From: an uncultured Verrucomicrobiota bacterium
GTDB taxonomy: Bacteria; Verrucomicrobiota; Verrucomicrobiia; Limisphaerales; UBA9464
Reading direction: 5' to 3'
Length of the DNA: 46,839 nt
Assembly: GCA_903939515.1 (NCBI GenBank)
Contig: CAJAHH010000154.1
Span: forward strand, 1 to 46,839
In this document: piece after piece, positions 1,902 to 22,256 of the stretch
How positions within the stretch are numbered: the stretch's first letter is position 1
Layout of the letters: every line of letters starts with the position of its first letter
The notes under the pieces: model-generated
Seen by the model: the letters and a program-made list of their open reading frames with translations, nothing else
Databases searched by the model: none
What the model was told of the DNA's origin: nothing
Program-made: the position numbers and the translations under genes

Positions 1902-1987
1902 TGGTGCCGCGGGCGGGACTCGAACCCGCACGGCCTTTCGGCCTGGGGATTTTAAGTCCCCTGTGTCTGCCATTTCACCACCGCGGC
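1902..1987 (-). tRNA. tRNA-Leu(UAA)
   Basis: On the minus strand the sequence folds as a complete class II tRNA: acceptor GCCGCGG pairing with CCGCGGC, anticodon arm GGGGA-CTTAAAA-TCCCC with anticodon TAA, a long variable arm (GGCCGAAAGGCC), a T arm with GGTTCGAGTCC, discriminator A and an encoded CCA at 1902-1904. The 5' end is at 1987. The gene is the attachment site of the adjacent island: the part from the anticodon loop to the 5' end is duplicated at 22151-22190. Its 5' half and upstream flank may therefore be element-derived. Confidence 0.97.
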
Positions 1988-2012
1988 AATTGCGTTTTTG
2001 CTGGGGTTTTGA
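1950..2012. other. attL: left attachment site inside tRNA-Leu
   Basis: The first 40 bases (1950-1989) are identical to 22151-22190. The next 23 bases (CGTTTTTGCTGGGGTTTTGA and the three before it) differ at two positions. The identity begins at the edge of the anticodon loop (1950-1956), passes through the D arm and 5' acceptor strand, and extends about 25 bp upstream of the tRNA gene. Confidence 0.85.
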
Positions 2013-2069: not shown

Positions 2070-3200
2070 GTGAAACCCACTGAAACCAAACGATCAGATG
2101 AGCGAAAGTACAAGACTGTCTTAGATGTTCGCAACCAGCCGATTCGATATTTGTACCGGCGGGACGGCGCTTTCTACACGCGGTTCACGACAACCGATCA
2201 GGCTGGACGGAAACGAAAGGTGTGGAGATCCCTAAGTACGGCTTCAACAGTTCCATCCGCCAGGGCGGCCATGCTGAAGCTGATATCTGAAGCGGCCCAG
2301 GCCACCATCCCAGTCCAGGGGCGCTGCCCCACATTCCTCGCCTACTCCGAACGCTTTCTGGAAGAGGCTTCAGCAAACAAACGCCCAGCCACGCAGCGGA
2401 AAGAGAAAACCCACATTGCGTGGTGGGTCGAGCGAATCGGCGCGCAGCCGGTGAGCCGGATTCATCGGACCCACATCAACAATGCCATCGCAGACCTCAG
2501 AAAAAACGGGCTCAGTCCGCGTACCTGTAACCTGTACGTCATCACGCTCCGCTGCGTGCTGAAGCGCGCCCTGGAGGAAGGATTGATCACCTCGTTGCCG
2601 ACGCAAGGGCTCCGCCCACTCAAGGTGACCCAGATAAAACGGCAGCTGGTAAGCACTGAGACCTTTGAACGGATCCTCGAAGTAGGAGCCCCTTCGGGCA
2701 CGAAGAATCACCAGCAGTTTCAGGATTACTACCGCTTCCTACTGCTGACGGGCGCCCGCGAAAAGGAAGCTCTGCGAGTCCGTTGGGCGGACATCGATTT
2801 CGATAATCGCCAGGTGACAATCGGAGCGGATGGCTTGGCTAAAAACCATGAATACCGGGTCGTCGACTTCGACTCTGCCCTGGAGGATTTGCTTCGGGAA
2901 CTGGCCGACCGTCGAGACCCAAACTCGCAGTGGCTGTTTCCCTCGCCCCAGCGTGGCGAGAAGGATATTCCGGCCAAAACCTTCCGGGAAAGTCTCAGGC
3001 TCGCCTGCGACCACGCTGGTGTTGCCTGGATTGGTTTCCACGATGCGCGCCACCACTTCGTTTCTAAGTGCGTCATGGCGGGAATCGATTTCATGACCAT
3101 TGCAGCCTGGGTTGGCCACAAGGACGGCGGAGTGCTGATCGGCAAGGTCTACGGCCATCTTGCCAGCGAGCACCGGAAGGCGATGGCGGCCAAACGATAA
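2070..3200 (+). CDS. int: Tyrosine-type site-specific integrase of the island
   Basis: A 376-residue phage-type tyrosine recombinase that would integrate and excise the element at tRNA-Leu. All catalytic positions can be read: Arg230 in TGAREKEAL, Lys258 in the beta-hairpin (LAKNHEYR), His324 and Arg327 in GFHDARHHF, His350 in WVGHKDGG, and the nucleophile Tyr361 in KVYGHLASEHR. Residues about 85-190 form the SAM-like core-binding domain, and the basic N terminus (about 1-70) is the expected arm-binding region. The start is GTG at 2070, 80 bp from the attachment core and directly after the 12-bp repeats. The gene reads away from the attachment site into the island. A short stretch resembling its first codons occurs just outside attR at 22257. 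Confidence 0.93.
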   Translation: MKPTETKRSDERKYKTVLDVRNQPIRYLYRRDGAFYTRFTTTDQAGRKRKVWRSLSTASTVPSARAAMLKLISEAAQATIPVQGRCPTFLAYSERFLEEASANKRPATQRKEKTHIAWWVERIGAQPVSRIHRTHINNAIADLRKNGLSPRTCNLYVITLRCVLKRALEEGLITSLPTQGLRPLKVTQIKRQLVSTETFERILEVGAPSGTKNHQQFQDYYRFLLLTGAREKEALRVRWADIDFDNRQVTIGADGLAKNHEYRVVDFDSALEDLLRELADRRDPNSQWLFPSPQRGEKDIPAKTFRESLRLACDHAGVAWIGFHDARHHFVSKCVMAGIDFMTIAAWVGHKDGGVLIGKVYGHLASEHRKAMAAKR

Positions 3201-3214
3201 CAATTCACGACTCT

Positions 3215-4553: not shown

Positions 4554-4829
4554 ATGAAGGCATATTCCACGAAAATAAACCCACCTGTGGCCCTGAAAAG
4601 TTTCCAGGACATGATGGGAATCTCACGATGCACAGTCTATCGATACCGGCGCCGAGGCTGGCTCACCGTGATCAACATCGCGGGTCGCCCCTACATCACC
4701 TCCGAAGCTGCATCCGAATTCAACCGCCGCGCCGCAGCCGGGGACTTCAAGAAGGCGCCACATGGAGCAGCACGACGTTCGTTGATGCGGTGCCTTCCGA
4801 TAACCAACGAAGGCGAGGTGCAACCATGA
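4554..4829 (+). CDS. Small helix-turn-helix protein (AlpA/excisionase-like)
   Basis: A 91-residue basic protein. Residues about 17-40 (SFQDMMGISRCTVYRYRRRGWL) form a helix-turn-helix with an Arg-rich recognition helix. A short beta-type stretch (INIAGRPYIT) and another helix (SEAASEFNRRAAAG) follow, which is the layout of MerR/AlpA/excisionase-type winged HTH proteins. In satellites and prophages such proteins regulate integrase or replication genes or act as directionality factors. The start is uncertain: ATG 4554 is chosen because the fold begins soon after it, and ATG 4545 would add three residues. The stop codon overlaps the primase start in an ATGA arrangement (4826-4829), so the two are translationally coupled. 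Confidence 0.7.
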   Translation: MKAYSTKINPPVALKSFQDMMGISRCTVYRYRRRGWLTVINIAGRPYITSEAASEFNRRAAAGDFKKAPHGAARRSLMRCLPITNEGEVQP

Positions 4830-5767
4830 ACCTTGAACAGATCATTGCAGAATCAGTGCTCGGAACAATTCAATGGAGGACCGACACCGAGGGGTTTTGC
4901 CAGTGTCCGGGGGCTCACCTTCACACCACTACCAACCAAAAAAAAGACTGTATAGTAAGAATATCCCGTCCATCCACGGTGTTCTGCTTCCACAGTTCAT
5001 GTGAACACGAAATAGCAAGATCGAAGACAAACCTCTACCGTGCTCTTGCAGCGCCAAGCGGCCTAACCCGATCTACTAAGAAACTGAAACTTACATCAGA
5101 AGAGACCAACCGACGCCAAGAAGCAGCCAAGAAAAGAAGCATGGCCTTGAGGGCCAAAAGCACGTTAGCTGTCATCATCAAAGAATACCGAATATCAGAG
5201 GAACAACTGCTCGCGGAATCACCCATTTCGATTCCGATTCAAATTCCAACTCATTCGAAGCTCCTCATTCAACATCTCTTCAATCCGTCCGATGTAATAT
5301 GGATAGGCGACACCCATGATTCCGGAAAACCCAGACATGCCAGGCACTTTAAAACGGCACAGCATTGGGCGAAATGGGGATTCTTGAAAGGGCCTTTTAT
5401 TGTACCTTCCACGTTCAATCCGGGTTCAGTGTCTCGATGCAAATCGAATGTACTATTACGTCGATATCTGGTTATTGAAAGCGACACCTTGCCTGCTGAA
5501 GATTTTCTCTCCGTAGTGAATTGGTGCCGACTGTTCATGCCCCTACACGCGGTCGTTCACACCGGAGGGAAGAGTCGACACGGTTGGTTTGATACCACAT
5601 TTCTGAATCCTGAAGCTTGGGTCGAGCTTCGTTCGATTCTTCCAGCTCTCGAAGCGGATTCCGCTTTGTTCAGAGAATCACAACCCGTCCGGTTGCCTGG
5701 AGTTCGACGAGGGACCGACCAATGGCAGCGGTTGTTGTTCTTGGCTCCGAGAAAGGAGGGATTATGA
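4826..5767 (+). CDS. AEP-like primase with N-terminal zinc-finger
   Basis: A 313-residue protein. The N terminus holds a likely zinc-binding module: Cys25, Cys27, His31/His33, then Cys42 and Cys54-F-His56-SS-Cys59. A charged helical segment follows (about 85-125). The C-terminal third matches the motif order of archaeo-eukaryotic primase folds: a strand with Glu218-Ser-Asp220 (LVIESD), then Ser250-Arg-His252 in GGKSRHGWF, then an RLPG turn near residue 291 followed by a hydrophobic strand. By analogy it would prime island DNA replication together with the helicase encoded next. The start at 4826 is preferred over ATG 4511 because it is coupled to the HTH gene and preceded by GCGAGG. It ends in an ATGA overlap with the helicase gene. 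The assignment rests on motifs; metal-binding motif III is not clear. Confidence 0.68.
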   Translation: MNLEQIIAESVLGTIQWRTDTEGFCQCPGAHLHTTTNQKKDCIVRISRPSTVFCFHSSCEHEIARSKTNLYRALAAPSGLTRSTKKLKLTSEETNRRQEAAKKRSMALRAKSTLAVIIKEYRISEEQLLAESPISIPIQIPTHSKLLIQHLFNPSDVIWIGDTHDSGKPRHARHFKTAQHWAKWGFLKGPFIVPSTFNPGSVSRCKSNVLLRRYLVIESDTLPAEDFLSVVNWCRLFMPLHAVVHTGGKSRHGWFDTTFLNPEAWVELRSILPALEADSALFRESQPVRLPGVRRGTDQWQRLLFLAPRKEGL

Positions 5768-7038
5768 GCGGATCTCAACCAAGCGATTACCTCCCGAAAT
5801 CGGCTATTGTGTATGACTCCCAAAAGCGCACTTGGTATACTACAGATTCATCGGGCAAGTGGATCAACATCAATGAAGACTCAGTTAAACGACGCCTAGT
5901 TGCATCCGGATTCGCAAGGGATAGAATGCTAGATGGTAGCTCTATGGAAAAAGAAATGACTCGGATTCAGGACGAACAGAATGTCTCCTATGTGGGACCA
6001 CTAGCTGGTTGGCCTATAGGAATTCATAAACATAGCGACGACAAATTCTTAGTGACTAAGGCTGCCATGCCACTGACTACAAAAGACATACAATGTGACA
6101 TGTTAATTAAAATTGGCGAAGCCGCACTTGGAGAAGAACAGTTTGAATGGTTTAAAGGCTTTATAAGGACTCGACGCGATGCTATACGAAATCGTATTTT
6201 CACCCCTAGCCCAGTAGCAATATTTGCAGGACCCGCTCACAGCTACAAATCTTTCATGCAACGACTAATAACCGAATTACTCGGTGGCCGGATGGCTAGA
6301 CCTTGGCGTTACATGAGCGGGCAAACATCATTTAATGGCGATTTATATGGAGCTGAACATTTATGCATTGAAGACGATGCTCCACCGACTGATAGTGCTA
6401 CCCAGACTAAAATAGGTTCACACATCAAATCACTCCTGTTTTCAAATGATCTCAGCGCCCATTTCAAAGGTCGTGATGCCGTTTATCTCAAGCCGATTTG
6501 GACTATGAGTATGTCCACCAATGACGAACCCTCAAACCTTTTATGTATACCACCAATTGACGAATCATTGGATGACAAAATTGCACTTCTGAAGACTAGC
6601 TGTATTATTTTTCCTTGGGACGACGACAAACACAAGCAGACTTGGATGCGCGAGCATTTTTTAGAAGAGGTCCAAGGGCTTGCCCATATCATAGATCAAC
6701 ACGTTATCCGGCCTGAATGGCACAACGATAGAACAATAATTAAGGCATACAAGAACAGCGATTTGTTAAATATGATTAACAACATTTCCCCAGAAGAGCA
6801 ACTTCTTAACATGATCGATGTAATCGCCAAAGGCGCAACGATCATAGGGAAAGCCATCGAAATTGATCTTCAAATTAGAGCCAGGTTTTCAAGACAAACA
6901 GAGAAGATCGCTGACACTCATTGGAAAATCGGCGTTTTATTGGGAAAGCTGGCAAAAAAACATCCAAGGCGTGTCACAAGAAAGACTATCCGGGGATCAG
7001 CTGAGTGGACGATACTGCCTCCCCTCAATAAGGCATAA
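5764..7038 (+). CDS. SF3/D5-like replicative helicase ATPase
   Basis: A 424-residue P-loop ATPase. Walker A is GPAHSYKS (residues 156-163, Lys162). Walker B is LCIEDDAP (Glu203, Asp204, Asp205). A polar sensor Asn253 ends the strand WTMSMSTNDEP, and FPWDDDKHK follows near 285. This spacing fits superfamily 3 helicases of small viruses and satellites, often paired with AEP primases. The N-terminal 110 residues are unassigned and the C terminus is basic (KKHPRRVTRKT), compatible with DNA binding. The start at ATG 5764 overlaps the primase stop (ATGA) and has a strong AAAGGAGG ribosome binding site at 5752-5759. The gene is clearly richer in A+T than its neighbours, which suggests transfer. Confidence 0.75.
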   Translation: MSGSQPSDYLPKSAIVYDSQKRTWYTTDSSGKWININEDSVKRRLVASGFARDRMLDGSSMEKEMTRIQDEQNVSYVGPLAGWPIGIHKHSDDKFLVTKAAMPLTTKDIQCDMLIKIGEAALGEEQFEWFKGFIRTRRDAIRNRIFTPSPVAIFAGPAHSYKSFMQRLITELLGGRMARPWRYMSGQTSFNGDLYGAEHLCIEDDAPPTDSATQTKIGSHIKSLLFSNDLSAHFKGRDAVYLKPIWTMSMSTNDEPSNLLCIPPIDESLDDKIALLKTSCIIFPWDDDKHKQTWMREHFLEEVQGLAHIIDQHVIRPEWHNDRTIIKAYKNSDLLNMINNISPEEQLLNMIDVIAKGATIIGKAIEIDLQIRARFSRQTEKIADTHWKIGVLLGKLAKKHPRRVTRKTIRGSAEWTILPPLNKA

Positions 7039-7568
7039 CCTCGTCTGAGCCTATCGCTAGCCAAATGCAGCGTGAAACACGAATACGGCAAATGACAAAA
7101 CGACCGCAGGGGCTCGACCAGTCCTCAGCACTCCTTGTTTTGGGGCTTCGCCCGCTCTGCGGAACGCTGATGGCAACCGGGGCGGGCCAACCAGATCGTC
7201 CAGCGCAGAGCAAAAATCCGCGCGAAAGATTCCGGCTACCAACCGACGCCGTAGTGCGCACGTAAGATCAAGACGCATGCAAACAAGGTAGGAAGCGGAT
7301 TGCGGTGGATGCTCCCGCGTCTGCTCCTGCAAGGCATCCAGTGAACCATCGATGAAAGCATTTACCAAGGGTGCCGAGAGCGGCCGCCAGCAACCATCTG
7401 GGGGTTCAGCGCCTCCGTGAATCTTGCGCGGGACTTTGAAGCCAGGGTGGACTGGTGGACCTCTCTCAGCACTCTTTATTCCTTCTATACTAGTCCCCTA
7501 GAATACCAGTAAGTAGTCCACCACTCCACCCTGCCCGTTGCAACCCCCTGTTTTGCCCGAAAAAAGAC
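7039..7568. other. Intergenic region after the helicase gene, candidate origin region
   Basis: These 530 bases show no convincing gene. Their main feature is the inverted repeat at 7444-7532. Short frames on both strands have no recognisable domains and no ribosome binding sites that I would trust. Confidence 0.5.
7444..7532. repeat. 17-bp inverted repeat flanking an A+T-rich 55-bp spacer
   Basis: AGGGTGGACTGGTGGAC (7444-7460) and GTCCACCACTCCACCCT (7516-7532) are inverted copies with one mismatch. Each arm contains a repeated GGTGGA/GGTGGAC element. The spacer is A+T-rich and contains CTAG-TCCC-CTAG. Placed just downstream of the helicase gene, it could be a replication origin, a regulatory site or a cruciform. 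The function is inferred. Confidence 0.5.
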
Positions 7569-7889
7569 TCACACACCCACCGGCGCCACCACCGGCAGCT
7601 CATAGGTAGCCCCACCCATCCTACCCTTGGGCAACGGATCCCCAGCAAGGATCCGCAGGGCCTCGGCAGCCTCTGCAATGGCCTTGGTGGCCTGCACAAG
7701 CTCCATGGTGGGGATATCCGCCTGCGAGACCCTCTCAGTGAGCAAGGACACCGCCTGCCAAAGGCCTCGGGCCGAATGTGCCCGATAGGACTGGCGAACC
7801 TTGAGCATCACCCCAATGGCCCTCTTGGGATTGGCATGAAGGCGTTTACGAACAGGAAAATCCCGGCTTTGAGTGAATGATGGTTCCAT
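7569..7889 (-). CDS. Small hypothetical protein
   Basis: A 106-residue protein I cannot assign. The N-terminal third is strongly basic (RDFPVRKRLHANPKRAIG, then KVRQSYRAH). The middle is alpha-helical and Ala-rich (VQATKAIAEAAEALRILAG), and the C terminus is short and hydrophobic (ATYELPVVAPVGV). There is no signal peptide or membrane helix. It could be a small nucleic-acid-binding protein. It is transcribed towards the helicase gene and has a near-perfect -10 hexamer immediately upstream. Confidence 0.5.
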   Translation of the reverse strand: MEPSFTQSRDFPVRKRLHANPKRAIGVMLKVRQSYRAHSARGLWQAVSLLTERVSQADIPTMELVQATKAIAEAAEALRILAGDPLPKGRMGGATYELPVVAPVGV

Positions 7890-7899
7890 AACTGCACTG

Positions 7900-7905
7900 A
7901 TTATA
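7900..7905 (-). promoter_or_regulatory. Candidate -10 element TATAAT
   Basis: On the minus strand TATAAT lies 10 bases upstream of the ATG at 7889, in a strongly A+T-rich stretch (7898-7930). It implies a very short or absent leader. No good -35 hexamer is visible at normal spacing. Confidence 0.4.
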
Positions 7906-8133
7906 TAATAATATCAACCATACAATACAACCTGATTCATCAATAAGCGCTTTACCATCTTGGCGATCACGAGTGTTTGATGGATACAGCTGCGCAGCTC
8001 ACCTGAGGACTGATTGACGCCCTCCCTGCTAAGGGGCTGGCGATCGGGACCAGGCGGGAACGGCCCAAGCCGACGCCACTGCCACCGACTGGATTTAAAT
8101 TGTTTCGAGCCGGTGTTGGCTTAGTTTACATAC

Positions 8134-8640
8134 ATGCCCCGCTCTAAAACTGCCTCTCTCCTCGTTGCATGCCTCGTCATGACCACCACCGCGACGGCGC
8201 AATCCAAAACCGAGAGAACCACCCTGACTGACGGCAAAGGACGCAGCGCGGGTTCTGCGACCACGCAAATCACCGGCACCTCTGAGCGGACCACGATCCG
8301 TGATGCCTCAGGCCGAACCGTCGGAACAGCGACAACACGTCCTTCGGGCTCGGGAGCCGAGCGAACCACCTTCACCGATGGCCAAGGGCGCAGCACAGGC
8401 TCAGCGACAACCCACACCAGCGGCACGTCGGAGCGGACGACCTTCCGTGACGCGACGGGTCGCACCACTGGGACCGCGACAACCCGCCCTACGGGTTCGG
8501 GGAGCGAACGGACTACGCTCACCGACGGCAAGGGGCGCAGCGCAGGTTCAGCAACTACTCAGACCAGCGGAGGCACGGAGCGCACGACCACTCGAGACGC
8601 GTCAGGTCGAACCACGGGGACCGCCACTAAACGGCCTTGA
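8134..8640 (+). CDS. Secreted tandem-repeat protein
   Basis: A 168-residue protein with a signal peptide (SLLVACLVMTTTATAQ, cleavage near residue 22) and then nothing but repeats. Six units of 24-25 residues follow the pattern ERTTxxDxxGRxxGxATT. Two unit types alternate (TDGKGRSAGSATT and RDASGRTxGTATT), so the true period is 49 residues, or 147 bp (8212-8358, 8359-8505, 8506-8637). The repeats are rich in Thr, Gly, Ser and Arg and probably form short beta-hairpins. The near-identical DNA of the units suggests recent amplification and possible copy-number variation. A terminator-like hairpin follows at 8654. Function unknown; an envelope or extracellular role is implied only by the signal peptide. 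Confidence 0.78.
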   Translation: MPRSKTASLLVACLVMTTTATAQSKTERTTLTDGKGRSAGSATTQITGTSERTTIRDASGRTVGTATTRPSGSGAERTTFTDGQGRSTGSATTHTSGTSERTTFRDATGRTTGTATTRPTGSGSERTTLTDGKGRSAGSATTQTSGGTERTTTRDASGRTTGTATKRP

Positions 8641-8653
8641 TAGGCCGGTGGCT

Positions 8654-8698
8654 GATAGGGTTGGACACCCAACCGGAGCGCCTATCGCATGATTTTTT
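8654..8698 (+). terminator. Rho-independent terminator candidate
   Basis: An outer stem GATAGG (8654-8659)/CCTATC (8681-8686) encloses an inner stem GTTGG/CCAAC with an ACAC loop. Six T residues follow at 8693-8698. It lies 13 bases after the stop of the repeat-protein gene. Confidence 0.55.
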
Positions 8699-8776
8699 GG
8701 CCGGGTGAAACCATCCTAGGTAGGCTTGTCGAACATCCTTGCACGTAACGGGGTAGACGCCCAAGGGTGATGCCTG

Positions 8777-10315
8777 ATGAATCTTCGTTTTCTGCCGCTT
8801 ATCTGGGTGGCGACCGCCTTGATTGCCATACCAACTTGGGGCCAGACCATCATCCCCAACCCACGGCCAGGTGCGGTGCTGTGGACCAAGACCGTGACAA
8901 ACATGCAGAGCGGAGCCGCTCTCTACCTGAGTTCGGATGAGCGATCGGTGGTCACGGCTACGGCTACGTTTAGCGGTCCGACGCCTCTGAGCATCGACCT
9001 CTTAAGTCAGACCTTCGGAACCTTGGGCGATTCGGAGAGACTCGCAGGGAAGCTGGTAACTCTTTCGGATGGTGGGGTGGTTCAACAGCCCTTTCGGGTA
9101 GACGATGGCATGGAGATGTTGCGCCGCGGAACCGGTGGCTGGACTTTTAGGGCGAATGGAAGATCCATTCCGACTCCCAGCCGCGTCCTCGCCACAAAAC
9201 GAAACACACTTCTCGCTCATGCTGACACTGGTAGCACCACCGGGAGCGGAACTGAATACCTGCTCGAGATTGACGGGACTACTGGAGCGAGCAGGTCCAA
9301 CAAGGTTGGCAACTTCCCACCATTCAAGCTGTGGGATCCAGCCGGCTTTGTTGCCAGTGGTGCTGCGATCGTTTTCTCCGCACCTCGGGTGATCAACGAT
9401 ACCTATCGCCGAAACGCCCTCTACCTCGCGAATACCGAGGCATTGAGCGTTGGTCCGATAATTTCTTGGGACCCATCCTGGGAACAATTCATCATCCTGC
9501 CAAATTCCGGGAAAACTACCGTTGTGACGACCGCTGACGGTTTGATCGTCATTTCGGCTGTCAGGGCCGATGCGCCCGAAACATCCGTTGGTCTGATCGT
9601 GATCGATCCCGACCGGGTGAGGCCCCAGCGGATCATTGAACTACCGTTCGGACCGATGCGGGTCACCGGTATGGCTGTGGGACGTGATGGGATCGTCTAC
9701 TGCTCGTTGAGCGACCGGGCCCAGCGCGGTGGCGTCGCCCGGGTAAACTTGACGACCGGGGAAGCTGCCCTAATCGGCAACGTTGTAGACCCTGTTGAGG
9801 CGCCACCGATTATTACCAAGGCGGGAGTTCTTTTGGTGGCCAGTAAACGGTATGGTGGCAATGGAACAATCCATGCCATCGCCACAGGCTCCTTGGGCGG
9901 CCTTGCACTGAGCCCTTGGCCTCGGAGCACCGGTGACAACTTCGACTCGTACCGAGAGCAATCCTTGGAGGATACCGATGGGGATGGTCTGACCGATTCC
10001 GAGGAACGTCTGAACTACGGCACCGATCCTCTCAAAGTAGACACTGATGGCGATGGATATTCGGACCTGGTGGAGGTTCAGAACGGCAGCAATCCAAAGT
10101 CGGCCTCCGATCTTCCGGAGATCATGGAGGTTAGGCCGGCCGTGCAGATTTACTTCGGCACTTCACTAGGTCGTCGCTACCAGCTCCAGTATTCCACCGA
10201 CCTGATCCAGTGGACTGACTTCGGTGCCGCTTTCACCGGAACCGGAGCCAAGCAATCGCAGTTGGTCGAGGCCGACCAGGCCAACCGGTTCTGGAAGTTG
10301 CGGAGGTTGGAGTGA
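8777..10315 (+). CDS. Secreted beta-propeller-like protein with calcium-binding TSP3-type repeats
   Basis: A 512-residue protein with a signal peptide (about 1-22, ending IPTWGQ). Residues about 30-390 are beta-rich, with propeller-like blade phrases (GTEYLLEIDGTTG, GLIVIDPDRVRPQR, VARVNLTTGEA). At 399-440, two DTDGDGLTDSEE/DTDGDGYSDLVE repeats match thrombospondin type 3 or dockerin-like calcium loops. The last about 55 residues (YQLQYSTDLIQW ... RFWKLRRLE) form a C-terminal module common on secreted verrucomicrobial proteins. The island's giant protein at 14777 ends in a related module. It is likely extracellular; ligand and role are unknown. Confidence 0.75.
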   Translation: MNLRFLPLIWVATALIAIPTWGQTIIPNPRPGAVLWTKTVTNMQSGAALYLSSDERSVVTATATFSGPTPLSIDLLSQTFGTLGDSERLAGKLVTLSDGGVVQQPFRVDDGMEMLRRGTGGWTFRANGRSIPTPSRVLATKRNTLLAHADTGSTTGSGTEYLLEIDGTTGASRSNKVGNFPPFKLWDPAGFVASGAAIVFSAPRVINDTYRRNALYLANTEALSVGPIISWDPSWEQFIILPNSGKTTVVTTADGLIVISAVRADAPETSVGLIVIDPDRVRPQRIIELPFGPMRVTGMAVGRDGIVYCSLSDRAQRGGVARVNLTTGEAALIGNVVDPVEAPPIITKAGVLLVASKRYGGNGTIHAIATGSLGGLALSPWPRSTGDNFDSYREQSLEDTDGDGLTDSEERLNYGTDPLKVDTDGDGYSDLVEVQNGSNPKSASDLPEIMEVRPAVQIYFGTSLGRRYQLQYSTDLIQWTDFGAAFTGTGAKQSQLVEADQANRFWKLRRLE

Positions 10316-10365
10316 TTGGCCGCTGAAAGGAGGGCAATTCGCAGCTACCATATAGACTTCAAACT

Positions 10366-13300
10366 ATGAACGAGCACGAAGCACGCGAACTCATTGAGTT
10401 GATCGCAGCGGAGAGACGGCGCGAAGACAGCCCCAATCTGCGGAACGCGCTTCGTTTGTTGGCAGACGAACTCAATTCCAAGGACTCCCATTTTATCCTG
10501 GAGCTGATCCAAAATGCCGAAGACAACCGGTACCGAGTTCCCAACCCAGAGCTACACATCGCGATTGTGGCTGACAACCCATGCGGAACGCCCGATGTCG
10601 AGTCCACTTTAATAACGCACAATAACGAGCAGGGATTCCTTCCCGAAAACGTCCGAAGCCTTGCCGCCGTCGGCGACAGCACCAAAAAAAAGAGCGAGGC
10701 GTCAGGCTACATTGGAGAAAAGGGCATCGGCTTTAAATCCGTGTTCCGGGTCACCGATGAGCCTCACATTTTTTCGGGTCCCTTTCGCTTCAAGTTCAAG
10801 AAGCCCACTCTCGAAGAGCCCACCGGCTACATCCATCCGCACTGGATCTCGACCCTACCCAATGGCCTGAGACCAGGCTTCACCAGCATTTTCCTACCCC
10901 TTCTGCCAGGTAAGGCTGAAGCAGTTGCCGCACAATTGGAATTGGTTGCACCGGAGACGCTCCTTTTTCTCAAGCGCATCCGCACGTTGCATCTTGGTCC
11001 AAATCGAAAGATTTCAATCGAAGGAACCATGCCGCGGTTTCGCCTGACTGGCCCTAATGGCACTGGCGATTACTTCGTTCACTCAGACACCTATCCTGTG
11101 CCGGAATCCGCGCGTGATGAGCGCCGATCAGGAGTCACACTCCGAGAGATCTTTATCGCCTTCCCCGTCGAGAACCAACCGCAGACCTCTGCAACGATTT
11201 TTGCGTTTCTCCCGACCGAGATCCGATCCGGCTTACCATTTCTTATCAATGCTGACTTTGTCGTTAGTTCGAACCGCGAAAGTATTCTCGAAGACCGACC
11301 TTGGAATCGTTGGATGCGAGATCAGATCGGTGTGGCGATAGCCCAGGCCTTCCTCGCGCTTCTCGAGATCCCCGATCTCCGAGCCTCGGCCTGGCGACAA
11401 CTACCAGACTTCGATAAGCCAAACCAAAGACATCCATTCTTTGAACCGAGCGTTATAGCTGCGCTTCGACTCCTGGCACACTCTCCGTGCATCCCAACCG
11501 ATCAAGGAACCCTCGCCCCGCCAAACGCAGTCCACGCGCCTTCGGCTTCGATGCGAGAAGTCCTCGCCAATTCAACGGACCGGCTGGTAGGCACCCATCT
11601 TCTACACCCAACTTGGGCAAGGGCGCCCCGTTCCATCCTGAGGCGGTTGGGGGTCATGGATCTTCCTTTCTCTCGACTACTCGAAATCCTCGATGAACCG
11701 GCGTGGTTGGAGCAGCGGGACATTGCATGGTGGATAAGATTCCTAACCACCTGCAAAGACCACGACCAAACGCGGGCGTCCCTCGGTGAATTCGCCGTCC
11801 TAAGATGCCAAGATGGTCACTGCCGAAATGCGCAGGAGACGGTGTACGTGCGTCAATCCGGCGATTCTGCCTCAGTGAAACTTCAGCCCAACTGGCCACC
11901 CACTTTCACCTTGGACCCGAATCTATTGGCTGGCATCAACGCCCGCCCCGAGCTAGCCGGGTGGTTCAAGCGGACCTTCGCTCTCCCCGGGTTCAACATC
12001 GGCCAATACATCGCTCACAGTCTGATTCCTTGGATTTCAATGCAGATTAGTGAAGGCAATTTACAGTCAGCTATCTCTGCAACTGTCTTCATTGCGCAGG
12101 AATATTCCAGAGACAGATCCTTGTCGCGAATTATTCAATCACTGGTCCCTTGGATCTGCTCGAAAACAAGCGCGGCGAGGACGGAACAATCTCAAATGGT
12201 CACCCCAGAGGGCTTCGAACATGGGCTCCCGTGGTATCGCGTGCTTCAGTCCTCTGCTGATAGGGCCCATTTGATAATATTAGATCAATCGTATCTCACT
12301 CATGCAACTTTAGCAGAGCAGAGGGAGCTATTACAGCTCATGCAAATGTGCGAAATCACAGATTGCCCCAAACCAAAATTCAGCAGCGACGGTGCATACT
12401 ATCCACCTGAGTGGCTCGAACAGTTAACCGAGAGCAGTGAAGACCAAAAACAGTTAACTAAGTTCACAACTCTCGAAGATTGGTTAGCACGACTCTATCA
12501 GACCGACTCCGATATCTTCACCGCTACACCATGGGGCGCATCTAATAGACTTCTAGACACTCTTCATTCACGTCCATGGTTGCCTAGCACCCACGGCCGC
12601 AGCGCACCATCTCGAGCTTTTTTCGATATCCCTGACCTTCAGGGCTTCCTAGGAGCTGAGGTCCCCTACTCCCGATCCAGCCTCCCGGAGGGTTTGCTGG
12701 CCCTACTAGGAGTGCAGCGCAGCCTACCTTCAGGAACGCTCATTCAAATCCTCCAAGACTTTCGCACTAATCCAATCCCACCTCAGCGCCTGATTCTTAA
12801 CATCTACAAACGACTCGATTCGCAAAACTTTGAATCGCATCGTTTCCACGAAGAATCATTGATCTGGTTGGCTTGCCCGACCCCGAAATGGATGCGTGTC
12901 AGCGAGGTCACATGGAAGGACTACGGGGCGGACATGGACGGCTACACATGGTCCGTTGAACGCACCTACGGCGATCATGAATTGCATGGCTTCTTCGTAA
13001 ACAAGATCGGGGTCACTGAAAAGCCCCCGTCCCAACAGCTCCTTACGATCTGGGCTACCCTTTGCCAGCAAGACCCAGAGTCCAAGTCCGAGACACAGAA
13101 GCGTATGACGCATCTCCTGCGCGATTTGGATGATCTGGATTTTATCAAAGAACCGTGGTGGCCGGAACGTAGGGCCACATTGGGCGTCTGGACCGAATCC
13201 GGGGATTTTGCACAGCCAACCGATGTCTACGTGCCGGACTCCGGACACGCGGAGGAATTGTTTCGGGACATGGTCCCTATCGCTTGGGTGCCAAAGAGTG

Positions 13301-14703
13301 GATCTAAAGCAATTATTAGGCTTTTGCTTGAAATTGGATGCGAATCGCTGGCGCGATCACTCCGCAGCTATCTCCATCGGCGCCCGGACGCTATCGATTT
13401 TGCCGTTAGTCCGCAGTTACTGACGTCCGCAACCAAGGAACTGATCCTACTGGCAACCCTGGAAAAGCCCGTGGGCCCACGGGAAGAACCGCTCTTAACG
13501 GCGCTACTAAAGACTGGTGAGTGCAATCATGTCGACCTTCAGATCCGCTACGAACTAGCGGCGTCACCTTGGTGGAAAGACAGCAACTCTTCAGCACATT
13601 GGGACGCAGAGTCTGCGTGCCTGCTTCTCGACCCGCGCTCAGACCTCGAAGAGCAACGATCCGATACAGCGAAGTCCATCGCCCGAGCGCTATACCCGGG
13701 AGATACGGCGCAGCACGACCTCATCAACGCCTTGCTCAGCAAGACGGTGAAGCACGCGACAAAGATCGCCGGGGATAAAAAATGGGCCGGTTCAACCTCT
13801 CATTTTGCGCGACTTTCCGAGCTGGGAATGGGCTCATTTTTAGGTGGACCTGAAACCACCGAGACAGAAAGCGCGAGTGAAATCCGGCCTCAACGCCACG
13901 AATTCTTAGATTCGGCCCTGCAGAGCCAAGCAACAACTACCAAGGAGAACTCGTCCAGCCAAGCGGGCGCTTCATCGCTACCCTCAGCAGCAATCATCAG
14001 CGCGTCAACACGCGGAGTAACAGAACTACAACCAAGTATTAGTGTCGCGGGAGAGCCCTGTGAAAGGGGCAGCCAAGGCAAATCCAGCAGTGAGCGATTC
14101 TACTCGGATAACACGCAAACTCCTGGAACAGAATCTGAGCCAAACGAGGAACTGAAAGAGGTTAAGTATCCACACATGGAAAAAGCTGCCATGAGTCAGC
14201 CGACACACAGCGGACAGAGGCAGGATTCGTCACGGAAAAATCAACACCGAAGTAAGGATCAGGACACAGAAAACAACATCGATAGCCAGCAACGTCCGCG
14301 TAGTCACAAATCTCAGAATCAGGAAATCGGGCAGGCCGCGATGGACCATGTCCGAAAATGGCTTACGGAGAATATCCCTGGCTGCGAAATTTTTGACGTC
14401 AGCCGAAAACTTACCTACGGACACGATTACCTAGTCAAATGGCGCGCTAGGGGTTTACGGATCGAAGTCAAGGGCCACTCCGGAGATGAAAATTCAATTG
14501 TCCTAACCCCGAATGAGCTCGTTGAGTCACGCCGAACCAATTCTCAGTATCCATGGCAACTGTGGAACGTGACTAACCTTGCTTCCAGAAAGCAGGTAAC
14601 AATCACTCGCTACTCGAACGTTCCCGACGGGGCCATCATTAAGGAAACAGGCGTGAGAGTAGACCTTTCCCGATGCGTACCGGCTCAAAGACATCAAAAG
14701 TAG
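10366..14703 (+). CDS. Sacsin-like GHKL ATPase fused to a DUF3883 (NO VEIN C-terminal) nuclease-like domain; candidate defence protein
   Basis: A 1445-residue protein. The N terminus carries a GHKL/Hsp90-type ATPase of the sacsin kind: the N box ELIQNAEDN (46-54), and the G1 region GEKGIGFKSVFRVTD (117-131) that closes over ATP. A long unassigned helical middle (about 330-1150) is followed by a low-complexity Ser/Gln/Glu-rich linker (about 1165-1325). The last 115 residues (from VRKWLTENIPG) match DUF3883, with Asp1354 and E1367-V-K1369-G giving a D...ExK pattern like PD-(D/E)xK nucleases. Family members of this shape recur in defence islands. Here the gene sits alone as island cargo, 50 bases after the propeller gene. 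I infer ATP-dependent sensing plus nucleic-acid cleavage; neither substrate nor trigger can be read. The size and domain order look complete. Confidence 0.82.
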   Translation: MNEHEARELIELIAAERRREDSPNLRNALRLLADELNSKDSHFILELIQNAEDNRYRVPNPELHIAIVADNPCGTPDVESTLITHNNEQGFLPENVRSLAAVGDSTKKKSEASGYIGEKGIGFKSVFRVTDEPHIFSGPFRFKFKKPTLEEPTGYIHPHWISTLPNGLRPGFTSIFLPLLPGKAEAVAAQLELVAPETLLFLKRIRTLHLGPNRKISIEGTMPRFRLTGPNGTGDYFVHSDTYPVPESARDERRSGVTLREIFIAFPVENQPQTSATIFAFLPTEIRSGLPFLINADFVVSSNRESILEDRPWNRWMRDQIGVAIAQAFLALLEIPDLRASAWRQLPDFDKPNQRHPFFEPSVIAALRLLAHSPCIPTDQGTLAPPNAVHAPSASMREVLANSTDRLVGTHLLHPTWARAPRSILRRLGVMDLPFSRLLEILDEPAWLEQRDIAWWIRFLTTCKDHDQTRASLGEFAVLRCQDGHCRNAQETVYVRQSGDSASVKLQPNWPPTFTLDPNLLAGINARPELAGWFKRTFALPGFNIGQYIAHSLIPWISMQISEGNLQSAISATVFIAQEYSRDRSLSRIIQSLVPWICSKTSAARTEQSQMVTPEGFEHGLPWYRVLQSSADRAHLIILDQSYLTHATLAEQRELLQLMQMCEITDCPKPKFSSDGAYYPPEWLEQLTESSEDQKQLTKFTTLEDWLARLYQTDSDIFTATPWGASNRLLDTLHSRPWLPSTHGRSAPSRAFFDIPDLQGFLGAEVPYSRSSLPEGLLALLGVQRSLPSGTLIQILQDFRTNPIPPQRLILNIYKRLDSQNFESHRFHEESLIWLACPTPKWMRVSEVTWKDYGADMDGYTWSVERTYGDHELHGFFVNKIGVTEKPPSQQLLTIWATLCQQDPESKSETQKRMTHLLRDLDDLDFIKEPWWPERRATLGVWTESGDFAQPTDVYVPDSGHAEELFRDMVPIAWVPKSGSKAIIRLLLEIGCESLARSLRSYLHRRPDAIDFAVSPQLLTSATKELILLATLEKPVGPREEPLLTALLKTGECNHVDLQIRYELAASPWWKDSNSSAHWDAESACLLLDPRSDLEEQRSDTAKSIARALYPGDTAQHDLINALLSKTVKHATKIAGDKKWAGSTSHFARLSELGMGSFLGGPETTETESASEIRPQRHEFLDSALQSQATTTKENSSSQAGASSLPSAAIISASTRGVTELQPSISVAGEPCERGSQGKSSSERFYSDNTQTPGTESEPNEELKEVKYPHMEKAAMSQPTHSGQRQDSSRKNQHRSKDQDTENNIDSQQRPRSHKSQNQEIGQAAMDHVRKWLTENIPGCEIFDVSRKLTYGHDYLVKWRARGLRIEVKGHSGDENSIVLTPNELVESRRTNSQYPWQLWNVTNLASRKQVTITRYSNVPDGAIIKETGVRVDLSRCVPAQRHQK

Positions 14704-14776: not shown

Positions 14777-17700
14777 CTACCTCACCCTCACCCGCCAGAA
14801 CTTGGCTTGTACATTGGGATCGGTTTGCAGGGTGATTTTCAACGGGTTGCCTGAGCCTTGGCCGGTGATGCGCTGAGTCTCGGTCCAAGCATTGAGGTCG
14901 GAAGTCGTCTCCAGAGCGAGGTTGACCCCTACTGGGGCTCGAATCTCCAAACTAAAGGTCCCATCGGGTTTGGGACGCTCGATCACCACCTGAGGCTGAG
15001 TTCCCACAGGTAGCACCTTGAACGTTTGATCCGCCGAGGCCGACAGCCACAGCGGACTGCCCGGATTGATAGCCCGCACTGTGACCGCGCCCTCCCCCAG
15101 CAAGGTCAACTGCTGATCATTGACTGCGGCCTGACCATTAATTACCGAGAAGGTTACTGGCAAACCGGAACTGGCATGAGCCGCCAGCTTCACAGATCCC
15201 GCCCCCAAGGTTTGATCTCCGACCGGTTCAAAGGTCACCACTTGAACCCCACGACCGACGGTGAATCGATTGGTAATCGCCGTGGCGGCTAGCCAGTTTC
15301 CGTCGCCGTTTTGCGCCGCCGCGATGACCAGTGCTCCGACTCCGGTCAGATTCAATTGTCCAGAAACCACGGCACCCGGTCCCGAGATTATGCGATAATT
15401 CACCGGTAACCCGCTGCTGGCTTTGGCCTCCAAGGCAAGCAGGTTGGTTCGGTAGGCCAGAGTGGTTTCAGCCGACCATGTAAGAACCTGCGAGGCCTTC
15501 GCCACGGTCACCGTCTGAGACACAGCCACAGATTGGTAGAGTTCACTACCGGCTTGAGACGCTTCGATTACCACCTCCCCTGCTCCGGTCAGCGACAACT
15601 GGTTGCCTACCACCGATCCTGGACCACTGCGCACCCGGTAGGTCACTGGCATTCCGTATTCGCTGACGGCCAGCAATGCCAAGGGACCTTCTCCAAAGGT
15701 CCTTGGTCCGATGGGTTCAAACACCAGCATGTATGGGATCTTGCTGATCACCCACGTGACCTCTTGGGAGCCAGGCTCATAATTAGAATTCCCTGAATGG
15801 CTGGCTCGAATCACCACGGTCCCAACGCCGGTCAACGTCAACCGATCCTTGGCCAAAACCGCGGGACCAGAAATGACCGCGTAGCTGAGTTCAAGCCCCG
15901 AGCTGACCGTTGCCGTCAGTAGAATCGGCTCGGGACTGAACGTTCGATCCGGGCTCCCACTCCAAACGATCGATTGGAAAGCCTTGGCCACCGGCACCGT
16001 CCAATCGGCCGAGGCAGCCTCGAAATCCGCGTTTCCAGACTGACGCGCCCGAATCACCACCGCGCCCGCGGCAGTCACCTGCAACCGATCACCGGAGATG
16101 AAACCTGAGCCTGACAAAACGGTGTACTCCATGGGCAACCCGCTGGTTGCGGTCGCCTTCAATGCTACAGGCGCGGAGCTATAAACCACCGGATCCAATG
16201 GCTGCCACACAACCGTCTGGCCCGACCGGGCAACAATCCGCTCGAATTCAGCCTGGGCCGGGGACCAGTTCTCATCACCCGCTTGGATCAATCGGAGACG
16301 AACCACACCGCCCCCGGTCGCAATCAATTTTCCAGCCACCAAGGTCGCCGGTCCACTGACGACCGAAATGCTCACCGGCAAGCTGCTGTCGGATCTGGCG
16401 GTCACTCCAACACCTGGCCCCTGGTGAATCAGCCCGAACCCGCCCTCAAGCACGAGGCTCTGATCCTTTTGGACGGATACCCTCACCGGAATGCCTACCA
16501 CGCTATCCGAAAAATCAGGGCTGAAGGCGATCGGCCAAACCGTGGCCGTAGCAGGGAGCACGAATGGATCCTGATAAAACTTGGAAGGCAGATCGTAGGT
16601 TGGTGACTGCCCGTTCAGCGAGTAGTAGACCAGCCAATCGGGCCTGCCGCACCGGAAGCTGATCCTAGCATTTAACGATGCATTCACTGCTTCCATCACT
16701 TCGAAACCGTTCACCGACATCACCAACTCGAAGACCTCGATGCGAACTGAATTGGTCACACTCACAGTCCCGTCGGAGACAGCTACGGAGATCAGATTCG
16801 TGGAGGGGGACTGATTCCGAGCCGGCGTCCATACCATTCGTCCGTCTTCCGCCAGCACCAAATTGGTCGGACCGCCAACGATCCGGTAGGTTAACCGATT
16901 GGCCGGGAGATCGGCATCGGTCACGTCCATCTTCAAACTCACAACTTGTCCGAAAACTATCCGTTGATCAGCCCAAGCGGCTACCTGAGGCGGCTGATTA
17001 AGTTCTGTCACGGTCACCGTGAATGAGCGCTCAGCCGTTGCGCCAATTGAATCGGCGACACTGACAGTCACCGGATAGGTTCCGGGACCTTGACCCTCTG
17101 AGGGAGTCCAGCGGAGTTCACCGGTGCTGGCATCCAAGGTCATTCCCGGCGGGTTCACCTTCAGCACATAGGACAACGCTTGAGCGGGCAGATCGGAATC
17201 AATTGCCCGTACAGTGATCGACCAGGCCGCCCCTTCCGGCACCGTCACATCAGCCAGAGCTTCAAGCGTTGGAGGATTGTTCACCTCGGTCACCGTCAGT
17301 TGCACCGTCGTCTGAGAAGCCAACGGCGGTTGCCCGTCATCGGCCACCTCGATGACAAAGTCCACAGTGCTCCCGCCATCCGATTCAGAAGGAGTCCAAG
17401 TCAAGAAGCCGCTCTTGGAATCCACCGAGGCAGCGCTGGGGCCACTGACCAACCGGAAGGTGAGGCCATTGGCCGGCAAGTCAGGATCGGGAGCGGTGAG
17501 CACCTGAGACCATGCCGTGCCTTCCGCGACCGATGCGGCGGCAACCGGGTTGATCACCGGTGGGCGGTTCACTTCAGTGACTGTCACGTCGAATTGCCCC
17601 GTCGTGCTGAGGAAACCATCCGAGACCTCCACTATCACAGGGTAGGTGCTACCTCCCTGAGTTTCGGTCGGAGCCCAAGATACGAATCCCTCAAGGCCTA

Positions 17701-18793
17701 CAAACAAGCCGGGAGGCCCAGAAACCAACCGCACGGTGAGCTTCTGTGCGGGAAGGTCTACATCTGCGAGTTTCAACTGAATGGTCAAGTCACCCTGCTC
17801 TGCGACAGACAATGGTTGCAGATCAACGAATGTCGGCGGCTTATTGATGGACAGGAGAGCTACGATACTTGTTTCGGAGCCAGCTGAGTTGCTGACTTCA
17901 ACAGTGTAATAGCCAGCGTCGGAATTTTGTGCCTGATTTATTTTGAGTGTGGAGTTCGTTGCACCAACAAGCAGGATCCCATTTTTCCGCCACTGATAGA
18001 ACAGTGGAGGACGCCCGACAGCTGATGTTGAGAAGACCATATCCTCACCCGGATTGACGGTTTGGCCGAAAAGTTTTTTTATTATATGCGGAGTGTTTTC
18101 AATAACACTAACTTTAAATCGATTCGTGAAGAAGTTGTAGATTGGCGGGATAACACTTCCATGCTGCCCACGAGCAAATCCCCACTCAAGAGAATAAACA
18201 CTAGAATCCTGAGGAGTTACTTTTGTGATTGTTAAACTGTTGCCAGAGGGCGTAAACACAACCCCATTTTTCCTCCAAACTGGAGGCGTTCGCCAGACAA
18301 ACGGGAAATATCCACCGCAAAATTGCAAATTAATAATCAGACTATCCCCTTCATACACCACCTGATCACTAGGAGGGTTCATGAGATTGACTGCCCAGTC
18401 ATTATGAACACTAGCAAACACCTTATTACTCTCAACACTGCCAAGTTCATTGATTACAACCACATGGTACGGCCCCGGATCAAAGCCAGCACTAATCTGC
18501 AAAATTGAATTAGTAGCCTCAGCTATCTTTTTCCCTTTCAAATACCACTGATAATTGATCGGCTGTCGACCGGTCGCCCATGCAGAAAAACTGCCATTTG
18601 TGACAGCGATCCAAACTGGGGGACCATTGGGAGTACCAACCTGAACTCTTGGGATAATACAGCAATTTTCCGGACTCTGAGCCAAGATCGGCTTCCCTTC
18701 ATTAACCTCTTGCGCCAACAGGTTTATGAATAAAGACAATAAGCCTGTTAAATTAATTAATAATGAAGCCCAATCAAAAGGTTTTTTATTCAT
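14777..18793 (-). CDS. Giant secreted protein: Ig-like, cadherin-like, chitobiase-C-like and MBG-like repeats
   Basis: A 1338-residue secreted protein. A signal peptide or anchor is at about 8-30 (WASLLINLTGLLSLFINLLA). Ig-like domains occupy about 60-315 (one clear: YQWRKNG ... DAGYYTVEVSN). Four cadherin-like/putative-Ig repeats of about 95 residues cover about 315-690, each ending VTEVNxPP or VTELNQPP. A chitobiase C-terminal-like segment lies near 700-768. About six MBG-like repeats of about 81 residues cover 770-1268 (SSGLPVxYxxxSGPA ... LTGxGxVVIxAxQ). A C-terminal module ends FWRVRVR. The start at 18793 (MNKKPF) is preferred over ATG 18877 because it places the hydrophobic segment at a normal distance. 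Long arrays of this kind suggest an adhesive or surface role; no enzyme domain is seen. Confidence 0.78.
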   Translation of the reverse strand: MNKKPFDWASLLINLTGLLSLFINLLAQEVNEGKPILAQSPENCCIIPRVQVGTPNGPPVWIAVTNGSFSAWATGRQPINYQWYLKGKKIAEATNSILQISAGFDPGPYHVVVINELGSVESNKVFASVHNDWAVNLMNPPSDQVVYEGDSLIINLQFCGGYFPFVWRTPPVWRKNGVVFTPSGNSLTITKVTPQDSSVYSLEWGFARGQHGSVIPPIYNFFTNRFKVSVIENTPHIIKKLFGQTVNPGEDMVFSTSAVGRPPLFYQWRKNGILLVGATNSTLKINQAQNSDAGYYTVEVSNSAGSETSIVALLSINKPPTFVDLQPLSVAEQGDLTIQLKLADVDLPAQKLTVRLVSGPPGLFVGLEGFVSWAPTETQGGSTYPVIVEVSDGFLSTTGQFDVTVTEVNRPPVINPVAAASVAEGTAWSQVLTAPDPDLPANGLTFRLVSGPSAASVDSKSGFLTWTPSESDGGSTVDFVIEVADDGQPPLASQTTVQLTVTEVNNPPTLEALADVTVPEGAAWSITVRAIDSDLPAQALSYVLKVNPPGMTLDASTGELRWTPSEGQGPGTYPVTVSVADSIGATAERSFTVTVTELNQPPQVAAWADQRIVFGQVVSLKMDVTDADLPANRLTYRIVGGPTNLVLAEDGRMVWTPARNQSPSTNLISVAVSDGTVSVTNSVRIEVFELVMSVNGFEVMEAVNASLNARISFRCGRPDWLVYYSLNGQSPTYDLPSKFYQDPFVLPATATVWPIAFSPDFSDSVVGIPVRVSVQKDQSLVLEGGFGLIHQGPGVGVTARSDSSLPVSISVVSGPATLVAGKLIATGGGVVRLRLIQAGDENWSPAQAEFERIVARSGQTVVWQPLDPVVYSSAPVALKATATSGLPMEYTVLSGSGFISGDRLQVTAAGAVVIRARQSGNADFEAASADWTVPVAKAFQSIVWSGSPDRTFSPEPILLTATVSSGLELSYAVISGPAVLAKDRLTLTGVGTVVIRASHSGNSNYEPGSQEVTWVISKIPYMLVFEPIGPRTFGEGPLALLAVSEYGMPVTYRVRSGPGSVVGNQLSLTGAGEVVIEASQAGSELYQSVAVSQTVTVAKASQVLTWSAETTLAYRTNLLALEAKASSGLPVNYRIISGPGAVVSGQLNLTGVGALVIAAAQNGDGNWLAATAITNRFTVGRGVQVVTFEPVGDQTLGAGSVKLAAHASSGLPVTFSVINGQAAVNDQQLTLLGEGAVTVRAINPGSPLWLSASADQTFKVLPVGTQPQVVIERPKPDGTFSLEIRAPVGVNLALETTSDLNAWTETQRITGQGSGNPLKITLQTDPNVQAKFWRVRVR

Positions 18794-19143
18794 AAACAGT
18801 AAACACCCGAAGTGGACTCTACCGTTCATGAAAAAGGCGCGAGCCCGAGAATCCCATTCCGAGGTACGACCAAGCACCCTGTCACGAGAAAGCCCAGGTC
18901 GCGCCCAGGTGGACGCGCCCTAGCAATCGATCTCGTGACGGAATTTGGTCGTTTTCGGAATGAGATCGTAGCTAACAGCTACGCGAAAATGTTGAGGAAA
19001 GTTAGATTCTGATCGGTTGAAGATCCTTTCGCTGATTTGGACCATGATCCTCAGCCATGGCGTTGCAAGTCTCTAGTTTCCTTGGACTGAATCGCGAAGA
19101 GATCTCGGGGGCTGAGCGGTCTGGCACGGGGCTAGAACCGGAT
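18794..19143. other. Intergenic region between two minus-strand genes
   Basis: No gene is supported in these 350 bases. They contain a perfect 7-bp hairpin CGTAGCT-AAC-AGCTACG at 18970-18986 without a T run. The promoter of the giant protein gene probably lies near 18800-18900 but cannot be placed. Confidence 0.5.
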
Positions 19144-22150: not shown

Positions 22151-22213
22151 TTTTAAGTCCCCTGTGTCTGCCATTTCACCACCGCGGCAACTACGTTTTT
22201 GCTGGGGTTTTGA
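22151..22213. other. attR: duplicated 5' half of tRNA-Leu(UAA)
   Basis: The first 40 bases repeat 1950-1989 without mismatch; the following 23 match 1990-2012 with two mismatches. Only the part from the anticodon loop to the tRNA 5' end is present. Left of it (22141-22150) the sequence no longer matches a tRNA, so this is a fragment and not a second gene. Confidence 0.85.
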
Positions 22214-22256
22214 GACCCTCGACTGCTGTAACTCAAACTCGTCACGGTAGCGAAAA

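Follow-up and report, generated by a model that had tools for sequence, protein, structure and literature searches.

The 46,839-nucleotide contig CAJAHH010000154.1 of an uncultured Verrucomicrobiota bacterium (hereafter, the window) carries, as cargo of an integrative island at a tRNA-Leu gene, an open reading frame (ORF) that, judging by its sequence, is a further member of Tiamat, an anti-phage family that already has a name (gene tmtA, protein TmtA). We consider it fairly probable that this is an anti-phage gene in which an ATP clamp resembling those of Hsp90 and MORC controls a C-terminal nuclease; what the data show are the family match, the predicted folds, the conserved motifs, the island and the stand-alone layout. 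A preliminary description of the same DNA had put the gene forward as a candidate defence gene, and the match to a defence family bears this out, although the family is not an unnamed one. The gene and the parts of its product are as follows.

10366..14703, + strand: tmtA-like gene (Tiamat), 1445 amino acids, sacsin/Hsp90-type GHKL ATPase scaffold with a predicted C-terminal NOV_C (DUF3883) nuclease-fold domain (Pfam, PADLOC, NCBIfam, motifs)
10366..11400, + strand: GHKL ATPase and Hsp90-middle-like part, residues 1-345 (Pfam, alignment, model, Foldseek)
10501-10527, + strand: N box, within the GHKL ATPase part
10714-10746, + strand: G2 loop, within the GHKL ATPase part
11458..13845, + strand: repeat scaffold, residues 365-1160 (model, profile-profile comparison)
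13846..14295, + strand: Ser/Gln/Thr-rich linker, predicted to be disordered, about residues 1160-1310 (composition, model)
14308..14700, + strand: NOV_C/DUF3883 domain of predicted PD-(D/E)XK nuclease fold, about residues 1315-1445, with D1354, E1367 and K1369 (Pfam, alignment, model, fold matches)

The ORF starts with ATG and contains no internal stop codons. Nine PADLOC models of TmtA match the protein; all but one of them (E 0.0067) reach E ≤ 3e-11, and the strongest match (E 3.9e-101) spans residues 7-566. Pfam detects a SACS domain above the cut-off (residues 40-138, E 2.8e-10), and NCBIfam NF047352, the sacsin N-terminal ATP-binding domain, scores 63.9 bits against a cut-off of 50; the sacsin-like ATPase of the preliminary description is thus upheld by both collections. 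TmtA, which we take to be the protein of Tiamat, joins an N-terminal GHKL/sacsin-type ATPase to a C-terminal DUF3883 domain in one gene without an obligate partner, and the window gene combines a match to the Tiamat profiles with the N-terminal ATPase, the C-terminal NOV_C domain and the single-gene layout. It differs in that the best model covers the stretch up to residue 566 only, and the nearest full-length relative found is 33% identical (aligned over residues 14-1438). A PHROGs search with the window protein gave no match.

The C-terminal domain carries the signature D1354...E1367-x-K1369, with EVKG from residue 1367 (D54, E67 and K69 in domain numbering). Among 26 aligned NOV_C ends (the window protein and 25 others), D1354 and K1369 are invariant and E1367 is nearly so, and a six-frame search of the genome recovers NOV_C at 24.6 bits, over the cut-off of 22.1. 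The model of the last 145 residues reaches a predicted local distance difference test score (pLDDT) of 88.5 and a predicted template-modelling score (pTM) of 0.81. Its best Protein Data Bank (PDB) matches in Foldseek are SPARDA complexes and Hjc resolvases (best E 1.2e-3); a second structural comparison places Hjc (2wcw) on top, with Z 10.7, a root-mean-square deviation of 3.0 and 112 residues aligned, followed by SPARDA (9qcc, Z 10.4), DpnI (4kyw) and NhoI (8q5n; both Z 9.8). We take all of these to be PD-(D/E)XK nucleases, and the core fold of that superfamily together with the D...(D/E)xK residues is present in the NOV_C domain as modelled. In Table 1 of PMC3710099, as far as that source was accessible, DUF3883 is named as a novel restriction endonuclease (REase) domain.

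No methylase match was found in the ten main ORFs of the island (Pfam and PADLOC scan; shorter ORFs not scanned), as the preliminary description had stated; therefore, discrimination of phage DNA would proceed via a sensed structure or DNA modification, or else the cut would be indiscriminate and kill the cell. The latter, an abortive infection in which the switched-on nuclease cuts host and phage DNA alike without selective restriction, is a serious possibility that we rate somewhat below even: no self-marking gene of any kind was seen in the same ten ORFs, and SPARDA, an indiscriminate DNA-degrading abortive system, is among the best fold matches, but DpnI and NhoI, enzymes that require DNA modification, match about equally and Hjc slightly better. 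Fold similarity is uninformative on specificity. Type IV-like restriction, whereby the NOV_C domain or the scaffold would read modified or branched phage DNA and cut it while sparing the host, seems to us possible but rather doubtful. The matches to DpnI, NhoI and Holliday-junction resolvases, the missing methylase, and a co-match to Mrr_cat, below the cut-off, in one relative (L060) are compatible with such a mode; nevertheless, Pfam shows no added DNA-reading domain, and the positions conserved throughout, or almost throughout, the NOV_C ends (D54, E67, V68, K69 and V102 of the domain) are mainly catalytic ones.

The GHKL motifs are ELIQNAEDN from residue 46 (E46, N50, D53) and GEKGIGFKSVF from residue 117 (G117-F123); the ORF, the motifs and the numbering of E46, N50, G122, E1367 and K1369 in the preliminary description proved correct. 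E46, N50, D53, G117, G120 and G122 are invariant in 36 scaffold rows and in 50 whole proteins, and further invariants across the 36 aligned scaffolds of relatives include N86, E88, G90, K107, E118, F123, K124, R304 and N314. An AlphaFold2 model of residues 1-1180 (mean pLDDT 82.9, pTM 0.52) drops below pLDDT 50 only in 114-119 and 1160-1180. Foldseek matches the start of this model best to TRAP1/Hsp90 (E 4.1e-9), then to MORC2/3, SMCHD1, sacsin SR1 and MutL; none of these matches extends beyond the N-terminal module into the remainder of the model.

Between the two ends, Pfam assigns no domain to residues 139-1323, in agreement with the preliminary description, which, however, had read this region as a Ser/Gln-rich linker of about 1200 residues. 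Profile-profile comparison of slices detects related modules near residues 365-470, 470-560, 725-830 and 925-1035 (4 of 21 pairs at 77-97% probability), and the share of S, Q, T, P, N and G rises, with hydrophobic residues falling, only in windows 1141-1320. Residues 1-1160 are thus predicted to be folded into an Hsp90/sacsin-type module followed by repeats. Given the folded model and the related modules, the bulk of the supposed linker is a repeat scaffold, sacsin-like in layout, and the Ser/Gln-rich, disordered part shrinks to about residues 1160-1310; of the flexibly tethered nuclease proposed earlier, the predicted nuclease fold and the tether stand, but not the length of the latter.

Among solved structures, chaperones come closest in fold to the N-terminal part, and to our knowledge neither NO VEIN nor sacsin of eukaryotes is known as a nuclease, so that the protein could be a chaperone-like or housekeeping relative of Hsp90 and sacsin whose NOV_C end merely binds nucleic acid. 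We regard this as very improbable: matches to the window protein are sparse (in 3 of the 59 near genomes and in 10 of the 387 drawn from the phylum, the own genome counted in both, at the sensitivity of that search), the gene is island cargo, the catalytic triad is retained, and relatives bear other nuclease types at the same end. The likeness to NO VEIN, after which NOV_C is named, rests on the Pfam name, and that to sacsin concerns the N-terminal domain (structural likeness via SR1 only) and a unit about the size of the window scaffold. Sacsin units comprise at least 1,100 residues with sub-repeats, according to the accessible part of PMC3629688; unlike the window protein, sacsin has three Hsp90-like modules along with DnaJ and HEPN domains (PMC3710099, accessible part). 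The prokaryotic MORC and paraMORC proteins of restriction systems likewise pair a GHKL ATPase with a nuclease, either within one polypeptide or as a neighbour, and some of their operons hold SF2 helicases and HNH. For relatives of MORC, restriction systems in which GHKL proteins team up with nucleases, HNH and SF2 helicases have been proposed, and a MORC-specific motif in the S5 domain has been described (PMC2292703, accessible part). They are a different GHKL family, whereas the window protein matches the sacsin models of Pfam and NCBIfam.

The island that carries tmtA spans 20.2 kb and comprises the following features.

1902..1987, - strand: tRNA-Leu(TAA), the integration site (tRNA search)
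1950..2012, no strand: left attachment (att)-like direct repeat of 63 nucleotides, covering the 5' half of tRNA-Leu and sequence upstream (repeat search)
2070..3200, + strand: island tyrosine integrase, with an uninterrupted frame of 376 amino acids (family matches; 92% identical protein at the same tRNA in genome G016)
5617..7038, + strand: DUF5906/primase-like protein, a backbone gene (weak family matches)
8134..10315, + strand: two cargo genes, a repeat protein and a TSP3-repeat protein (both recur, with tmtA absent, on C126, another contig of the genome)
14777-18877, - strand: Ig-like repeat protein, cargo (ORF scan)
19144-21135, - strand: FGE/SUMF1-domain protein, cargo (ORF scan)
21140-21559, - strand: small ORF, cargo (ORF scan)
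22151..22213, no strand: right att-like direct repeat, 97% identical to the left copy (repeat search)

The 63-nucleotide repeat begins near the anticodon of the tRNA, and repeats of the type GGATACACTT lie inside both ends of the island (2037-2063 and 21994-22044). The GC (guanine plus cytosine) content is 0.547 inside the island, against 0.604 to its right and 0.519 in the short stretch to its left; composition alone therefore marks just one of the two borders. A congener, G016, has the integrase at the same tRNA and aligns with the window in three blocks across 1902-7951 at 75-81% nucleotide identity and again across 21736-22191 at 78%; its contigs break at the cargo, and the search of the 59 near genomes with the window protein yielded no TmtA match in it. 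Since G016 shares the backbone without a TmtA match, tmtA belongs to the variable cargo of a recurring island. Taken together, the repeats at tRNA-Leu, the integrase and the recurring backbone substantiate the earlier claim that the gene is cargo of a mobile island.

Contig C126 offers a comparison within the genome. Window positions 8081-10306 are 85.7% identical to it at the nucleotide level, the likeness ending 60 bases before tmtA; C126 also carries a related primase and, at 72%, part of the FGE gene, with 1.25 kb between the two cargo genes and the FGE part where the window has 8.8 kb including tmtA. The genes to the left of tmtA were considered as partners and rejected, for C126 has both of them and the single TmtA match of the genome is the one in the window. 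The first of the two, at 8134-8640, encodes a small protein of near-identical repeats (TLTDGKGRSAGSATT...) and forms with the TSP3 gene a module that is repeated on C126. The nine other main island ORFs gave no PADLOC hit better than E 0.027, and no DrmD-like helicase lies within the 4.2 kb upstream of tmtA. The gene is stand-alone on the island, although a need for a partner elsewhere is possible. DISARM, which we take to consist of the SNF2 helicase DrmD with drmABC neighbours, is not indicated, there being no DrmD-like gene upstream and no PADLOC Drm hit in the ten island ORFs.

The tRNA-Leu gene looks like a contested integration site. Window positions 22328-22477 resemble the start of an integrase in genome G008, and a remnant of a different element thus adjoins the island (22151-22477). 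A related integrase comes after this tRNA-Leu gene in G008 (L039, 9927-10693; 55.8% identity over residues 14-203). The match of G008 to the right flank was considered as an empty site and rejected, because another integrase sits there; no empty integration site was seen among the places inspected from the search of the 59 genomes.

When the window protein was the sole query, a pattern search of the genome_contigs collection retrieved no relatives. With a two-member alignment (the window protein and its relative from G019), the search returned 502 stretches representing 302 relatives, in many bacterial phyla and in archaea; the 80 best were retained for the work on context and end types. The same search found no relative in viral_contigs, and the phage collection gave a single short match. 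In the genome itself, a TmtA query matches the window gene only; a second NOV_C-like domain occurs there in a 116-amino-acid frame with EVKG (G000:C130:36483-36701; L028 9920-10270).

The preliminary description had set the gene neighbourhoods of homologues as a test in advance, and in the subset of loci inspected the outcome is divided. Of the two full-length neighbours of the window protein, L051 lies between an integrase gene and genes for a TrwC relaxase and a TrwB coupling protein, and L088, from a metagenome-assembled genome named Akkermansia, has a superfamily 1 helicase with an REase domain downstream. Relatives were found in 13 plasmid records, 5 of them conjugative, each match covering at most 26% of the protein, in a collection that is mobile by choice. 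Four of these records were inspected: the relative on a Sulfuricurvum plasmid adjoins QatABCD, the second is in line with helicase, DUF1156 and DUF499 genes, the third has Tn3 and insertion sequence genes downstream, and the fourth is surrounded by hypothetical genes and has an SMC-type ATPase and a repair exonuclease next to it, with an IS701 at the edge. Enrichment of Tiamat in a Pseudomonas island hotspot (PMC12629846, accessible part) also speaks for mobility, but the Poribacteria loci considered below, as well as a survey in which Tiamat of Actinobacteria is almost always chromosomal (PMC10482375, accessible part), speak against it.

Such surroundings could also mean that the gene does not act in phage defence but serves the island, for instance by keeping competing integrative elements or plasmids out of this tRNA-Leu site. 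The contested site with its integrase-like remnant and the other integrase in G008, the conjugative locus of L051 and the plasmid records would all fit; we nonetheless find it improbable, with relatives spread across so many phyla and the archaea, classed by PADLOC as defence and in one case adjoining Qat.

Comparison of the relatives suggests that the scaffold is not bound to one nuclease. ORFs were extracted from the 80 loci and from 6 of the 10 phylum loci, 86 in total; the phylum loci L023, L025, L026 and L027, without an ORF match at E 1e-5, enter no count, and L025 was aligned separately. With NOV_C called by a hidden Markov model built from 12 ends and the other types by short patterns, the 86 C-terminal ends divide into 30 NOV_C, 28 with an HNH-like zinc motif, 4 NucS-like and 24 uncalled, some of the last because the contig stops there. 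Pfam places NucS_C over the cut-off in both NucS-like ends tested (L075, L112) and NOV_C over it in L060; HNH_2 appears below the cut-off in 5 of 7 HNH-like ends (L052, L053, L066, L068, L019) and not at all in L055 and L117. Because relatives bear different nuclease types at the same place, the end apparently serves to cut nucleic acid.

A DrmD-like SNF2 helicase lies upstream of 23 of the 28 HNH-like forms. If the count is restricted to loci having 2.5 kb or more of upstream sequence, the helicase accompanies 23 of 26 HNH-like ends, none of 27 NOV_C ends (the window included), none of 3 NucS-like ends and 6 of 20 others. PADLOC DrmD model PDLC02623 is the best match for all four helicases tested (E 1e-99 to 1e-121), two of which have HEPN_Swt1 at the N terminus. 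In several loci the scaffold frame opens right past the stop codon of the helicase, at a distance of -4 (true start codons not set), indicating that the two are closely packed. These helicase-paired relatives have the same scaffold as the window gene, which has neither the HNH-like end nor the upstream helicase. In a tree of 68 scaffolds, a quick one computed without a mixture model, with long branches, uneven residue composition and 19 of the 86 rows left out, the window protein groups with L051 and L088 (support 100), within a set of 30 rows that includes 18 HNH-like forms (support 99), and the three end types require at least 7 changes. There are 5 independent pairs for end type against helicase, about 2.9 in the expected direction and 0 against it (sign test p 0.25); with so few independent events, the link between end and helicase, strong in the raw counts, is not decided statistically.

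We see roughly balanced chances that the sacsin/NOV-type GHKL scaffold works as a general platform of immunity whose nuclease ends can be exchanged (NOV_C, HNH and NucS-type PD-(D/E)XK), and that the type of end matches the operon: HNH forms are accompanied by a DrmD-like SNF2 helicase, NOV_C forms are on their own. The name Tiamat, as now annotated, would then lump both layouts, and the island gene, from a clade close to the HNH forms, would represent a stand-alone version independent of a helicase. What seems new here, on few independent events, is the scaffold with NOV_C, HNH-like or NucS-like ends and the confinement of the helicase, among called ends, to the HNH-like ones. The literature searched, most subscription journals aside, showed no account of different nuclease ends or of helicase-paired Tiamat, and the accessible part of PMC12839542 mentions none of GHKL, Hsp90, MORC or DrmD.

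Two further arrangements were observed among the relatives. One gene family adjoins the scaffold 61 to 145 bases downstream in L059, L117 and L087 and 264 bases upstream in L092; it is a possible second partner, and its member in L117 is a UvrD helicase by Pfam. In L027 (5971-19816, genome G055), an open frame of 2509 amino acids with a sacsin-type start is in line with frames of 911 and 985 amino acids, possibly another operon type of the platform.

Several results weigh against the reading of the window gene as an ATP-controlled nuclease of phage defence on a mobile island. Run on the window protein, Pfam finds NOV_C (residues 1324-1411) at 18.9 bits, below the cut-off, so that the DUF3883 assignment of the preliminary description is carried by the invariant residues and the genome search, and in Foldseek alone no PDB match to the model of this domain reaches E ≤ 0.001. 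The G1 box reads NNExGF in place of DxGxG, which leaves ATP hydrolysis uncertain even though NNExGF is the consensus of the family itself in the 50 whole proteins. PDB matches of the model of residues 1-1180 have template-modelling scores of at most 0.21 by query length; together with the pTM of 0.52, this ties a known fold to the N-terminal module only and leaves the overall arrangement unsure. In Poribacteria, five to six of the loci have neighbouring genes in common, apparently a stable setting on the chromosome. The primase family of the island occurs in 10 of the 59 near genomes, the own one included, and at one such locus (L144 of G041, 8255-13025) BrxA, BrxB and BrxC stand near the contig end (PADLOC E 1.6e-100, 6.3e-73 and 0), which speaks for defence; but among seven further ORFs from same-primase loci, picked by eye, six have no PADLOC hit and one a weak hit, and thus the island family is not dedicated to defence.

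As for the mechanism, given as unknown for Tiamat in the accessible part of a 2026 review (PMC12926258), we infer ATP gating, DNA cutting and a phage trigger. The sacsin/Hsp90-type N-terminal module would bind ATP, dimerise and close in the manner of an Hsp90 or MORC clamp, while the repeat scaffold (365-1160) might sense a phage structure or keep the clamp on DNA. Closure would free or position the PD-(D/E)XK nuclease on its flexible tether of 150 residues, and the nuclease would then cut DNA.

Outside the island, an Xre/MbcA/ParS-type antitoxin gene (34284-34817) adjoins an ORF of 151 amino acids, possibly its toxin (window 33829-34817, - strand).

For surveys, caution is due, as the PADLOC models of TmtA also match a helicase-paired HNH form (L053, at 2e-148); in a survey of plant-associated samples, all Tiamat hits were on plant sequence (PMC12409356, accessible part). 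For Tiamat itself, the comparison yields a testable mechanism, centred on the catalytic residues of the nuclease end and on the ATP-clamp module, and the naturally occurring variety of nuclease ends on a single scaffold, some accompanied by a helicase and others not, amounts to a comparative series.

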